A stretch of 20,923 nucleotides of DNA. Origin: a virus. Where the stretch lies: positions 1 through 20,923 of the IMG/VR virus record IMGVR_UViG_3300042861_000569; one strand, given 5' to 3'. The position numbers and the translations under genes are program-made. The number at the start of each line of letters is the position of its first letter. The first letter of the stretch is position 1. Shown here in pieces: positions 4,007 to 15,013 of this stretch. The notes beneath the pieces are model-generated. The model was not told the origin of the DNA and ran no database searches. It saw nothing but the letters and a program-made list of their open reading frames with translations.

Positions 4007-6130
4007 TTACATAGAGAGTTTGGAAACAAAGTACATAGTAACTTTGGAGTTACCTCTTGTTTTGCGGTCTTTTTGATATCCGAGAGTTGTTAGGATTGAA
4101 CCAATGCGCTGAGTGTTGAGGTAATTAAACTTAGTTTCCATCATTAAGTATTGCTGAATATCGGTAAGCGACATCCACTCTCCAAAGGCTCTATCTCCAA
4201 CTTCGAGCTTCTTATGTATTAAGTCCTCCTCAGGTGTTGAGTGCTTGAATGCCTCAGTTGATACGTTTAAAAGAGCGATTTCTTCTTTCAATACAGTGTA
4301 TGACTCGCCAGCTAAATACATCGCGTAAAGCTCACGCCAAAGCTCAGCCTTATCGCATTCATTATATAGCTTATGGTCAATGTCAAGTATGTGAATTGGT
4401 ATCTGCCTGCGGTTACCAGTTGGGTCGGATAGTATTTGCGTTTCATTTGATGTGCCGCAGAATACTGCAAGCCTGCGTAGGTCAGTTGATACTCTACCAT
4501 AAGGCTCGCGCACGTTTATAAACTCTTTAGATGTAAGTTCCTTGAGCCGCTTCTCCTCTTTTTTTGATTTGCCGCCATACTCATCATCTAATATTAGAAG
4601 CTTCTTGGTCATTAGTATTTCATCATCTTTTCCTGCATCCATTTTGGATTCAGCAAACAAGAAACGTAGCTCTTTAGGTAGTAAGTATCTAAACCAATGG
4701 GTCTTTCCAGTTCCTTGCTTTTCCCCTGAGAAGATGAGCACTAATGGCGAGTGATTGCCATAAGCAGAAGCAACAGCAGAAACAAGCCACTTGGTAATAA
4801 ACTTATCAGCATTGGGAGTGTCGGTTTTAACACTGGCAAGTAGTTTGGATAAGTTAGGGCGGTTGTCAACTGGCTTTACATCTTGCTCAAAGAACTCGTG
4901 CAGTGGGTTGTAGGTTTGAATACGATTTGAGAATAGTATGGAGGTAATTAAGTCTTTTGTTGACTCTTTAAAAATAGCTTTTGAATCGAGGAAGATTGAG
5001 TTAATGTCGCTATCATCAATCGGCTTGTTGTTAAGTTCTACGTTGCGAGTTATGGTATTTTTGCGCAGTGAAAAAGTATTGACAAATACTGCTATATCGG
5101 CACTTACGTTCTCCGATTTATACTTTATATCCTTGCTTACTATCTGCTGCACTATCTCAGTGCTTTGCTCTTGTGTAATGCCGCCAAACTTTTCGAGATT
5201 TTTTACTATTTCCTCTGAGCCAACTCCTGCTGCACGCTGTGAAGTAGCCGAGCGCATTATCTCTTTTGTTTGATTTGAATAGGCATCTATGCCGTTCTGC
5301 TTGGCGTGAAAGTAGATGGTTGCAATGGTTGACTTATTGCCTTTGCTTTCGCTGTGATTCTTAAGGCAAGCAGTGTACTGCCTATCGCAATCATCTGAGT
5401 TATACTTAGATGAATGCGAAGATAAAGTATGGAAGTGGTCTCGCCCTTGCTCGCCGAACTCACTAACAAGCGCATAGCATATTGAAATCCAATCTGAGTA
5501 ATCTTCGCAGAGGTTAACCTGCTTTTTATCCATTTGCGCAATCATAGAATCAAAGTCAGTTTTTACAACTACTACCTTATTATATTTGATTTCTTTTTTC
5601 TTGGGCAGATACTTCTTAAATACTGGAGCTTTGGTATTTTCATATAGGAAAGGGTCATAAGAAGCAAACCTTGCGCGAGCAACATTCTTGCAGGACTGGT
5701 CGATTATTAGCTGATATGAATTGTAAAGGTAAGATGCAATGCCGTTAAACGCATCAAGATGCCTACTGCCATCTATGCGATAGATAACGCATAAGCCGTT
5801 TCCACTAATGGAAACAAATACAGCATAAGTGTAAGGGTCAGCACTTAACTGCTTTCGCGTTTCTTCAACATTCTCGATGTTGTCTATATCCATTGCGATA
5901 AAGCCTGAGTGAGTGCGTAGCGCATCATCTTTGCGAGCTGCGAATGAGCCGCTGATTGTTACCAGTGGAGCGGTCTTTTTAAGAAGGTCTCTAACTTCTT
6001 TGTTCGGAGCTGCTCTGCATTGCAGCACTATGTCTTGCCATCTTCCTGAGCGTATGCCTTCAAGAAATGAGGTTATTTGGATGTCAACATCTTGGTCATC
6101 CTTGATGTTCTTGTAGTAGGAAATCTGCAT
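4007..6130 (-). CDS. Primase-helicase: BT4734-like N-domain, PriCT-2, SF3-type ATPase
   Basis: The 707-residue protein combines priming and unwinding. Residues about 1-180 match the BT4734/BF3469-type N-terminal domain, with A-M-D-I-D (D81, D83; possible primase metal ligands), S-I-S-G-N-G-L (107-113) and D-x-S-C-K-N-V-x-R-x-R-F-x-S-Y-D-P. Residues about 205-275 look like PriCT-2 (C-E-D-Y-S-D-W). Residues about 440-600 form the VirE/D5-like helicase with Walker A GEKQGTGKT (469-477), Walker B LLILDDE (511-517) and G-N-R-R (572-575). A canonical primase histidine is not obvious in the S-x-S-G-N-G-L region. Its start overlaps the SF2 helicase gene by 35 nt, and the origin-like repeats begin right after its stop. 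Confidence 0.9.
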   Translation of the reverse strand: MQISYYKNIKDDQDVDIQITSFLEGIRSGRWQDIVLQCRAAPNKEVRDLLKKTAPLVTISGSFAARKDDALRTHSGFIAMDIDNIENVEETRKQLSADPYTYAVFVSISGNGLCVIYRIDGSRHLDAFNGIASYLYNSYQLIIDQSCKNVARARFASYDPFLYENTKAPVFKKYLPKKKEIKYNKVVVVKTDFDSMIAQMDKKQVNLCEDYSDWISICYALVSEFGEQGRDHFHTLSSHSSKYNSDDCDRQYTACLKNHSESKGNKSTIATIYFHAKQNGIDAYSNQTKEIMRSATSQRAAGVGSEEIVKNLEKFGGITQEQSTEIVQQIVSKDIKYKSENVSADIAVFVNTFSLRKNTITRNVELNNKPIDDSDINSIFLDSKAIFKESTKDLITSILFSNRIQTYNPLHEFFEQDVKPVDNRPNLSKLLASVKTDTPNADKFITKWLVSAVASAYGNHSPLVLIFSGEKQGTGKTHWFRYLLPKELRFLFAESKMDAGKDDEILMTKKLLILDDEYGGKSKKEEKRLKELTSKEFINVREPYGRVSTDLRRLAVFCGTSNETQILSDPTGNRRQIPIHILDIDHKLYNECDKAELWRELYAMYLAGESYTVLKEEIALLNVSTEAFKHSTPEEDLIHKKLEVGDRAFGEWMSLTDIQQYLMMETKFNYLNTQRIGSILTTLGYQKDRKTRGNSKVTMYFVSKLSM

Positions 6131-12596: not shown

Positions 12597-13217
12597 TTAT
12601 TGCGCAGCCTTAGCAGCTCCGAAGCCTATTAAAGCTCCAACACCTACTTTGAAAGCGGTTGTTTGATACCACTTCTTGTCTTGCTTGATGTAGATGTTGT
12701 TCATTCCAGTAATCTGCATTGATGGGTTATCGATGCGCATTCTAATAACTTTATCTCTACGCTTAAACAATCCTTTTCGAATGGTATCACCAACTGCATA
12801 GGTAAAATCGGCATTCATAATTAACGAGTCAATCTGCAAGTTGCCTTTAGTGGTTAGCTGCCCACCGATTACCCAAAACTTCTCAGCCTTGTAAAACTTT
12901 AGCGGCAATCTAAGGTGAGGCACTCGGTCGATGATAACAGTATCAGCAACCTTGAACTCCGTTTTAATTACTGTTCGCGTTTTGAACTTTACTACCTCAA
13001 CTGGATTCTCCAACTTGAGTTCGAGTGCTGCAATCTGCTTTGCCTGCATTGCCTCCTTAGAGTCGAACGCTGCAATGACTTGCGCCTGCGTTGCAATAGT
13101 TGTGCTATCCTCAAAGCGAGTTGATGTAAGCTTGTGAGGGCAAGGTTGAGTGCAGGTCCTAATTAAGAGCAGCAGCAGTATGAGGCAGATTGTTATCAAT
13201 AGCTTGTTGAAATCCAT
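12597..13217 (-). CDS. Membrane-anchored, spanin-like protein, 206 aa
   Basis: The 206-residue protein starts with a hydrophobic signal or anchor (residues 6-19, L-L-I-T-I-C-L-I-L-L-L-L-L-I), followed by C22 and C26. A helical region at about 40-75 rich in A, Q and E looks like a short coiled coil. A strand-rich part follows (V-V-K-F-K-T-R-T-V-I-K-T-E-F), and the C-terminus is hydrophobic and glycine-rich (V-G-V-G-A-L-I-G-F-G-A-A). An N-terminal anchor plus periplasmic coiled coil at the end of the lysis block suggests a spanin-type protein. The sequence before C22 is not a good lipobox. It also resembles DUF6808-type phage proteins. The start is fixed by the anchor, which produces a 59-nt overlap with the preceding gene. 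Confidence 0.62.
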   Translation of the reverse strand: MDFNKLLITICLILLLLLIRTCTQPCPHKLTSTRFEDSTTIATQAQVIAAFDSKEAMQAKQIAALELKLENPVEVVKFKTRTVIKTEFKVADTVIIDRVPHLRLPLKFYKAEKFWVIGGQLTTKGNLQIDSLIMNADFTYAVGDTIRKGLFKRRDKVIRMRIDNPSMQITGMNNIYIKQDKKWYQTTAFKVGVGALIGFGAAKAAQ

Positions 13218-13359
13218 CTTTTATAAGTTTAAAAAGTTTTTTCTTGCTTTTAACTAACAGCCGCTTATCCTTAACTTCCGCTTCCAAGATATTGAGTGCC
13301 ACGCAAACGGGCATAAAATTCTCAACAACGTGCAGCGATAGCTTCTCCTCAATACTCAT
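13159..13359 (-). CDS. Small basic helical protein, 66 aa
   Basis: The 66-residue protein starts MSIEEKLSLHVVENFMPVCV and is strongly basic in its middle (K-D-K-R-L-L-V-K-S-K-K-K-L-F-K-L-I-K). Its start overlaps the stop of the PAS-HisKA gene by an ATGA, so the two are translationally coupled; its own end overlaps the spanin-like gene by 59 nt. I do not recognise it. A partner or adaptor of the PAS-HisKA protein is a possibility from coupling alone. Confidence 0.6.
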   Translation of the reverse strand: MSIEEKLSLHVVENFMPVCVALNILEAEVKDKRLLVKSKKKLFKLIKDGFQQAIDNNLPHTAAALN

Positions 13360-13916
13360 ATCTCGCGAGATGCTTTCTTAATTAATTGGCGCATTGCCTC
13401 ATCGAGTTTATCAACGCAGGCATCTACCATTTCGAGCAGCGCAATCTTCTCATCATCGACATTGGTGTCTCGTAGCATCTGAGTTAATGGCTTGATGTTT
13501 ACGAATGGCTGCCGCAATTCGTGCGACAAGATAAAGCGAAACTCCTCAAGCAATGCTCGTTGCCTTTCGTATTCGTGCGCAGTTATTGATGAAACATCTA
13601 CGAGTTGGATACCAATAAAAGTTATTCGAGTGCCAATTGCAAAGCAGTTCCAAACATTGTAACGATGCACTAAGTTCTTATGCTTTGTTCTCGCGTAAAC
13701 TCTTGCAGGGTCAGGCGATTGTTTCTTTGCTTTTTTTATTGCCTCGATAAAATCTTCGCGGTCAGTTTCAATATCTATTATGTCGATAATCTTCTTAGGC
13801 TGAATGTGGCTAACATAGCTTTTAAATAAGCTATTGTTGCTTATTATGTTGCCGTCCATATCAGTGACAACATAAAATAAATCAAGGTTATTCTCTAAGA
13901 TGAATAGTAGAGACAT
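13356..13916 (-). CDS. Stand-alone PAS-HisKA protein without a kinase catalytic domain
   Basis: The 186-residue protein has a PAS-like domain at about 8-110: L-F-Y-V-V-T-D-M-D-G-N-I-I (13-25), D-I-I-D-I-E-T-D-R-E-D-F (45-56), I-T-F-I-G-I-Q-L-V-D-V-S (98-109). A helical linker leads into a HisKA dimerisation and phosphoacceptor domain at about 115-182. The H-box F-I-L-S-H-E-L-R-Q-P-F (128-138) has phosphoacceptor H132 followed by E133, then a second helix (A-L-L-E-M-V-D-A-C-V-D-K-L). The gene stops there: no N, G1 or G2 boxes of an ATPase domain exist here or in the next gene. It could be phosphorylated by a host kinase, hetero-dimerise with one, or act as a decoy. It lies among membrane lysis genes with no transmembrane segment of its own. 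Confidence 0.85.
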   Translation of the reverse strand: MSLLFILENNLDLFYVVTDMDGNIISNNSLFKSYVSHIQPKKIIDIIDIETDREDFIEAIKKAKKQSPDPARVYARTKHKNLVHRYNVWNCFAIGTRITFIGIQLVDVSSITAHEYERQRALLEEFRFILSHELRQPFVNIKPLTQMLRDTNVDDEKIALLEMVDACVDKLDEAMRQLIKKASREI

Positions 13917-14362
13917 TGGCGAAGTTCAGTGTATAGTTTCCCCCAAGAAGCAAGTGAGTTGTATAACCAATAAGCGGTGAGCAATATCGTAAAGCTAAAC
14001 AGCAACCCCATAACTGGCGCATCCATTGTATCCTTATGCTCAATAACAGTCTTAGGCTTTATCTCGATGCGCTGATATGGCTTAGGATGCACCAAGAATG
14101 GCGAGCTGCTCGGAGTGATTGTATCGCTTGCGTAGATGTCGTGAATCATAGGCGTTTCTTGATGCGGCATATTATAATAATCGTGCGCAAGTTCGTAGGT
14201 TTGACCCCATTGGTCAACTGCGTATTGCTTGCCAAAGATAGTGAACTTTTGCACTGGCTCGCCATAATGCCAAACTTCATAATGCGTATGCATCTTGCAG
14301 CCTTTGCCTAAGATGCAGTTGTCGCTTAGAGTAACGATAGTATCAGTTCTTTCAGTTATCAT
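13895..14362 (-). CDS. Hypothetical protein with one C-terminal transmembrane segment, 155 aa
   Basis: The 155-residue protein starts MITERTDTIVTLSDNCI. A soluble, histidine- and aromatic-rich N-terminal part of about 110 residues includes F-T-I-F-G-K-Q-Y-A-V-D-Q-W-G and A-H-D-Y-Y-N-M-P-H. A single hydrophobic segment, V-M-G-L-L-F-S-F-T-I-L-L-T-A-Y-W-L-Y, lies near residues 117-134, with about 20 residues after it. I chose the ATG at 14362, inside the end of the holin-like gene, over an in-frame start at 14395. It lies between the holin candidate and the PAS-HisKA gene, so a role in lysis control or the envelope is possible. I do not recognise the family. Confidence 0.66.
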   Translation of the reverse strand: MITERTDTIVTLSDNCILGKGCKMHTHYEVWHYGEPVQKFTIFGKQYAVDQWGQTYELAHDYYNMPHQETPMIHDIYASDTITPSSSPFLVHPKPYQRIEIKPKTVIEHKDTMDAPVMGLLFSFTILLTAYWLYNSLASWGKLYTELRQCLYYSS

Positions 14363-14552
14363 CTTGGTTAGCTTTAGGTATGTATCCTGCGGCAATCATA
14401 GCTGCCACAATAGCGGCAAGTGTCTCGGTTGAAATAGCTTTAAAAATCAGCGCAAAGACGCTTGATAGAATAACCAGTGAGCCGATTGTCGACCTCCAGT
14501 GCTTAACAACAATATCTACCATCTGCCTTGACTTGCTGATTTTTCTTCGCAT
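14352..14552 (-). CDS. Holin candidate, 66 aa
   Basis: The 66-residue protein has a basic N-terminus (M-R-R-K-I-S-K-S-R), a hydrophobic segment at about 22-40 (T-I-G-S-L-V-I-L-S-S-V-F-A-L-I-F-K-A-I) and a second, shorter one at about 45-58 (L-A-A-I-V-A-A-M-I-A-A-G-Y-I). The tail is polar (A-N-Q-D-D-N). Small size, one or two membrane helices and charged ends fit a holin, and it starts five bases after the lysozyme gene. Holin families are too diverse to name this one by eye. The next gene starts inside its last codons. Confidence 0.7.
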   Translation of the reverse strand: MRRKISKSRQMVDIVVKHWRSTIGSLVILSSVFALIFKAISTETLAAIVAAMIAAGYIPKANQDDN

Positions 14553-14557
14553 AGAGT

Positions 14558-15013
14558 TTATACGCTCTTGGAGAAATAAAGTTCTGCTTCTAATGTTCTG
14601 CGCTTAACCAAGCCGTTGACCTTTTTGCCGCCTGCATTTACCCACTTTCCAAACTCTCTTGAGATTGCAGGGTCAGCAGGATTCGCTTTTACTTTAGTTA
14701 ATAAAGTTGACTTAGCAAGCGCACCAGTTCCAAGATTAAAAGCAAAAGACACCAACGCATCAAACTGATTTTGATTGACTGATGTTGTGTTAAGCAGTGC
14801 GCTAACATTCTGCTCGAAGTCGCGCACTGTTTTGCGCAAGAGCGCATCTGCCTGCTCTTTGGTAATCTTATCACCCATCTTAACCTTTTGGTCGTTCGCA
14901 TAATAGGTGCTGCCGTAGCCGATAGTCGGCACGTTAGCACTGCAAAGGTAAGCAGTTAGCCGCAAGCCTTCGAAGGATTTAATTAGCTCAAGACCTTTGG
15001 GCGAGATTGTCAT
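14558..15013 (-). CDS. GH24-family lysozyme (endolysin)
   Basis: The 151-residue protein is a T4-lysozyme-like muramidase that cuts the glycan strands of peptidoglycan. It starts MTISPKGLELIKSFEGLRL; the catalytic Glu is E15 (S-F-E-G), and P-T-I-G-Y-G (29-34) holds T30. The E-x8-[D/C]-x5-T catalytic pattern is met with Cys at position 24 instead of Asp, a variant known in the family. F-D-A-L-V-S-F-A-F-N-L-G (103-114) and G-L-V-K-R-R near the end are typical. No signal peptide or SAR segment is visible, so export should depend on a holin, and a holin candidate follows. It directly follows the tail-tip gene. Confidence 0.93.
   Translation of the reverse strand: MTISPKGLELIKSFEGLRLTAYLCSANVPTIGYGSTYYANDQKVKMGDKITKEQADALLRKTVRDFEQNVSALLNTTSVNQNQFDALVSFAFNLGTGALAKSTLLTKVKANPADPAISREFGKWVNAGGKKVNGLVKRRTLEAELYFSKSV

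Follow-up and report, generated by a model that had tools for sequence, protein, structure and literature searches.

A phage-encoded PAS-HisKA protein without an ATPase domain in the lysis block

RESULTS AND DISCUSSION

A histidine-kinase-like gene that ends after its DHp hairpin

What might a phage do with a protein that has the sensor and H-box of a histidine kinase and no ATPase domain? The question is raised by a gene in a 20,923-nt stretch of viral DNA (the window; positions 1 to 20,923 of IMG/VR virus record IMGVR_UViG_3300042861_000569), in which a D-V-T/S motif joins a PAS domain to a HisKA-type DHp hairpin and the reading frame ends right after the hairpin. The product is soluble and, as far as searched, phage-specific, and its gene is a core gene of its lineage of uncultured phages. 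The gene and its parts are listed below; the codon for H132 lies at 13521-13523 (minus strand).

13356..13916, minus strand: gene for the PAS-HisKA (PAS-DHp) protein without an ATPase domain; 186 amino acids, ATG start
13596..13886, minus strand: PAS domain, residues ~11-107; AF2 model, VIA-align Z scores, and invariant D107/V108
13362..13580, minus strand: DHp (HisKA) helical hairpin, residues 113-185; PF00512 and AF2 helices
13506..13541, minus strand: H-box F126-R-F-x-L-S-H132-E-L-R-Q-P137; family conservation and synonymous codon turnover

A PAS fold joined to an invariant H-box

Pfam PAS models matched neither the window protein nor any of 19 scanned family members, and membership in the PAS superfamily therefore rests on the fold. 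The AF2 model, built from a 19-row family alignment (pLDDT 79; 71-79 over the five models), has strands and helices in PAS order followed by a helical hairpin, and its best Foldseek match was the chimeric LOV-histidine kinase SB2F1 (8a52; E = 4.5e-9). Alignment to PAS domains with VIA-align gave Z scores of 12.4-13.7 and rmsd values of 1.9-3.2 over 91-105 residues; because these matches barely cover the DHp part, support for the latter comes from the profile, the model, and Foldseek. The NCBIfam PAS-HisKA kinases PnpS, WalK, and PhoR aligned weakly across both the PAS and HisKA parts, and the first match of a PDB search with the family profile was the PAS-containing sensor kinase 3a0r (E = 9e-5); a phmmer search of the PDB with the single sequence gave no match. 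Thus, the PAS-like sensor domain of the original prediction was borne out by AF2, Foldseek, and VIA-align and not by a Pfam PAS profile. At the PAS-to-DHp junction (D107-V108-S/T109), D107 and V108 are invariant in the family, which indicates that the PAS-DHp signaling linkage has been kept.

Pfam HisKA (PF00512) matched residues 130-178 of the window protein (E = 4.2e-5; 23.9 bits, with a cut-off of 26.9) and all 19 scanned family members, with a best E value of 5.7e-11. In the DHp part of the AF2 model, which is a monomer and of moderate confidence in this part (block pLDDT ~64-79), helices span residues 113-139, 141-149, and 155-185. When relatives were picked by patterns leaving out the H-box, S131, H132, E133, R135, Q136, and P137 were invariant (118/118 distinct proteins), and S-H-E-x-R-Q-P was kept in 20 of 20 terminase-selected genomes that were re-read. 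The histidine codon was CAC in 89 and CAT in 83 of 172 distinct proteins, indicating that the residue is held while its codon drifts; Q136, at position H+4, was also invariant in 172 sequences. Variability is lowest in the H-box, with a mean entropy of 0.15 bits versus 1.11 for the PAS domain and 1.45 for the loop and helix 2. The HisKA domain and intact H-box claimed earlier were therefore confirmed, and H132 was never lost in relatives.

Position within the lysis block

The genes surrounding the PAS-HisKA gene are as follows.

14558..15013, minus strand: endolysin (phage lysozyme), first gene of the lysis block; PF00959, E = 3e-44; phrog_7; same cassette in all loci
14352..14552, minus strand: holin candidate of 66 amino acids with two hydrophobic segments; conserved position
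13895..14395, minus strand: protein of ~150-166 amino acids with one C-terminal transmembrane (TM) segment; conserved position
13159..13359, minus strand: small protein of 66 amino acids (52-73 in the family) with the motif MPxxxAxxIL..xKDK; absent in L448
12597..13217, minus strand: spanin-like protein; N-terminal TM segment followed by Cys, hydrophobic C terminus, weak DUF6549 match

Gene order was constant in every locus with enough flanking sequence: lysozyme, small two-TM protein, C-terminal-TM protein, PAS-HisKA protein, the small protein where present, and spanin-like protein. Homologues adjoined the holin-like and lysozyme genes in all loci checked, and the flanking membrane proteins of the lysis block, as predicted, were found on both sides. 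The last 22 bases of the C-terminal-TM gene are shared with the start of the PAS-HisKA gene, and in most relatives the start of the small-protein gene overlaps the PAS-HisKA stop as ATGA. The small basic protein to which the gene was said to be coupled is just slightly basic, and in L448, the most divergent relative, it is missing and the spanin-like gene directly follows the PAS-HisKA gene. Since it is missing there, the small downstream protein was ruled out as an obligatory partner.

The spanin-like protein has the topology expected of a unimolecular spanin and its family is a u-spanin candidate in these phages. The context of its cysteine in relatives is RTC, KSC, GTC, or DKC. It also gave a weak match to Csx23 among defense system models, which probably reflects membrane or coiled-coil similarity.

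A role in lysis timing is suggested by a single hint, the position of the gene in the lysis block. One explanation of this kind is that the protein is a direct sensor acting on the holin, TM, or spanin-like proteins of its own cassette, with the DHp hairpin serving just as a dimerization and output helix and no link to two-component signaling. The gene's fixed place, with the holin/TM genes on one side, the spanin-like gene on the other, and reading frames that overlap, fits such an arrangement, yet the invariant residues are those of the catalytic H-box and not generic dimer positions, and the adjoining TM protein is more variable (median identity, 50%) than the PAS-HisKA protein (62%; lysozyme, 62%; spanin-like protein, 52%). 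We regard this explanation as quite unlikely.

A conserved core gene of its phage lineage

More than 400 relatives were found in IMG/VR (410-411 per scan), down to ~44-46% identity. Ka/Ks values of ~0.02-0.14 among relatives indicate that the gene is under strong purifying selection. Sister phages were chosen by terminase and not by the PAS-HisKA gene, and all 21 near-complete sister contigs obtained in this way (at least 33.7 kb) carried it; the C terminus was the same in 20 of 20 terminase-selected genomes that were re-read.

Scans of GTDB with short peptide patterns, which reach close relatives only and leave room for distant bacterial PAS-HisKA proteins without an ATPase domain, revealed no bacterial homologue. 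tblastn of plasmids and cultured phages gave just generic HisKA-like matches with E values above 0.01, and tblastn against 50,697 phage records gave no relative. The protein had a weak match to phrog_9803 (E = 0.003), which no control genome matched, and was unmatched by defense system models. Two short uncultured-phage proteins in BFVD, A0A8D9CBR8 (165 amino acids) and A0A6J5RGP7 (169 amino acids), resemble the model and carry histidine kinase or PAS fold-4 annotations; from these matches, kinase-less PAS(-DHp) proteins may be present in further phage groups.

Absence of ATPase and receiver domains

HATPase_c (PF02518) was absent from 31 related contigs (14 plus 17) of 24-39 kb, most of them 34-38 kb and none certified complete, in scans that matched 14 of 14 control genomes. 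The original prediction that the gene lacks an ATP-binding domain and that its neighbors encode none was thus upheld, and the HATPase_c domain that a class I histidine kinase has in the same protein or genome was lacking throughout the 31 contigs. A receiver domain was absent from the 14 related contigs tested. A separately encoded ATPase or receiver was therefore rejected on the basis of the 31 and 14 contigs, respectively, which leaves the host as the only source of partners. The length is 185-189 amino acids in 171 of the 172 distinct full proteins, which end just after DHp helix 2, and a degenerate CA-like C-terminal domain of the ChpT type was absent from all intact full-length relatives. 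In one relative, L185, an apparent frameshift within the PAS domain shortens the protein to 101 amino acids, with the H-box encoded further on; this may be a sequencing error.

It had been recognized beforehand that a frameshift cutting off a downstream ATPase domain would undo the prediction, and the constant length and lack of HATPase indicate that this is not the case. The window protein's score slightly under the Pfam HisKA cut-off and the shortened L185 protein (1 of 172) might point to a piece of a host kinase that was captured and is decaying, or to an assembly or frameshift artifact. Against this stand the length of the other 171 proteins, Ka/Ks values that speak against decay, the presence of the gene in 21 of 21 sister genomes, and the absence of HATPase from related contigs, and the explanation is extremely improbable; a frameshifted or degraded host kinase specifically was ruled out because the length is constant, selection acts on the gene, and the gene is core.

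A putative role in host two-component signaling

With no kinase engine of its own, the PAS-HisKA protein probably works through host signaling proteins, and its most plausible function would be to intercept a histidine kinase or a response regulator of the host. The specific reading that we tentatively prefer, at a little short of an even chance, is that of a PAS-tuned DHp dimer that would be incapable of phosphorylating itself and whose H132 would pass phosphoryl groups to and from host two-component proteins or serve to dock with them. The DHp hairpins would form a four-helix-bundle dimer, the PAS domain would tune its activity via the D-V-T linker, and H132 would receive its phosphoryl group in trans, either from the ATPase domain of a host kinase or in a back-transfer reaction from a response regulator that is already phosphorylated. 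As phosphoryl acceptor, donor, or docking residue, H132 would then divert a host signaling pathway, perhaps an envelope-related one, near the time of lysis.

The case for H132 as a putative phospho-acceptor is made by its conservation, and the invariant H-box residues could serve in packing or docking. At H+4, the family has an invariant Q136 and not the N or T found in bifunctional kinase/phosphatases; FixL/DctB-type kinases naturally carry Q at this position. In HisKA domains, E or D at H+1 is reported to be specifically required for kinase activity (PMC3510030), and the phage family retains the acid (E133). The residue at H+4 (N or T) is needed for phosphatase activity, which was abolished in CrdS N375Q (PMC3510030), and since the invariant Q136 occupies this canonical position, a phosphatase is mildly disfavored. 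These considerations bear on the possibility that the DHp dimer dephosphorylates a host response regulator. Such a function requires no ATPase domain, and the DHp of EnvZ or NtrB is enough for phosphatase activity (PMC3510030), but the invariant Q in place of N/T and the inactive CrdS variant argue against it, albeit not conclusively, and we consider it improbable.

CA-less or kinase-dead DHp proteins can modulate signaling, as do ChrS_CA-fs (PMC9491836), RetS on GacS, and DivL on CckA. By analogy, the phage DHp might bind or heterodimerize with a host histidine kinase as a pseudokinase-type modulator, with H132 never phosphorylated. Truncated ChrS, which a frameshift has deprived of a working CA domain, shows a strong phenotype for which its DHp is needed but not its histidine (PMC9491836), and RetS chains appeared among the more remote matches when the family profile was run against the PDB. 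However, this mode of action needs no invariant H132 or E133, yet both are kept under synonymous codon turnover, and we judge it somewhat unlikely.

The preferred reading, exchange or docking through H132, could be extended to a phosphorelay node within the lysis cassette, in which a host-charged PAS-DHp protein would set the time of lysis through its phosphorylation or PAS state. We hold this to be a minor possibility; if true, phages would read the signaling state of the host to time their exit.

Relation to known systems

Class I kinases with PAS-HisKA-HATPase architecture (ThkA-type 3a0r, PnpS, WalK, and 8a52) share with the phage protein the PAS fold, the coiled helix, a D-V-T-type motif, the HisKA DHp, and an S-H-E-x-R-x-P H-box. 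The phage protein differs in being without the catalytic ATP-binding domain and in having Q rather than T or N at H+4; it is ~20% identical in structural alignment and, as far as searched, belongs to a phage-only family. The dimeric DHp-type phosphotransferases Spo0B, ChpT, and PhyT also have a DHp hairpin with a phosphorylatable histidine and no autokinase activity, a likeness that for the phage protein is predicted. Unlike these proteins, the phage protein has a PAS sensor fused in front and its phosphotransfer is putative; ChpT, moreover, retains an atypical Bergerat-fold C-terminal domain (PMC3433190) that the phage protein lacks.

RetS, DivL, and ChrS_CA-fs are, like the phage protein, histidine-kinase-like without working autokinase and act on host kinases or regulators, but they are bacterial and have a CA domain or a remnant of one. 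In DivL and ChrS_CA-fs, the phospho-residue is dispensable (PMC9491836), whereas H132-E133 is invariant in the phage family. Among phage proteins, PIT4 of Pseudomonas phage LSL4 binds host two-component histidine kinase domains (PMC10714779). PIT4 is the product of an early gene; the PAS-HisKA protein, in contrast, has a sensor and H-box architecture and a position in the lysis block, and its binding is putative.

The open-licence literature searched described no phage system in which a PAS-HisKA protein without an ATPase domain is encoded in the lysis block. The domains are known; their combination as a core gene of a phage lysis block appears to be new. Inhibition of individual host kinases by phages has precedent; a kinase-less sensor and putative phospho-acceptor that is core to a large phage lineage and locked into its lysis block has none in the literature searched. 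It suggests that host two-component signaling is a routine late-infection target or input of environmental, probably Bacteroidota, phages.

Likely host and sister phages

The closest matches of the primase were in phages of Nonlabens, Cellulophaga, and Flavobacterium, and a sister phage's portal was nearest to those of Polaribacter phages only; on this basis, the host is likely a member of the Bacteroidota. Three cultured phages of the kind nearest in primase or portal have no annotated PAS or HisKA gene. Contig L298 (62,297 bases; loci L361 and L362) was examined for flanking host sequence and instead contained two different phage terminases, together with two sets of replication genes; it probably represents two related phages joined, either as an assembly chimera or as concatenated genomes. 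In a sister phage, adjacent glycosyltransferase-like and methyltransferase-like genes (L364:4685-5638 and 4135-4827) lie between structural genes, and a similar pair is present in L362.
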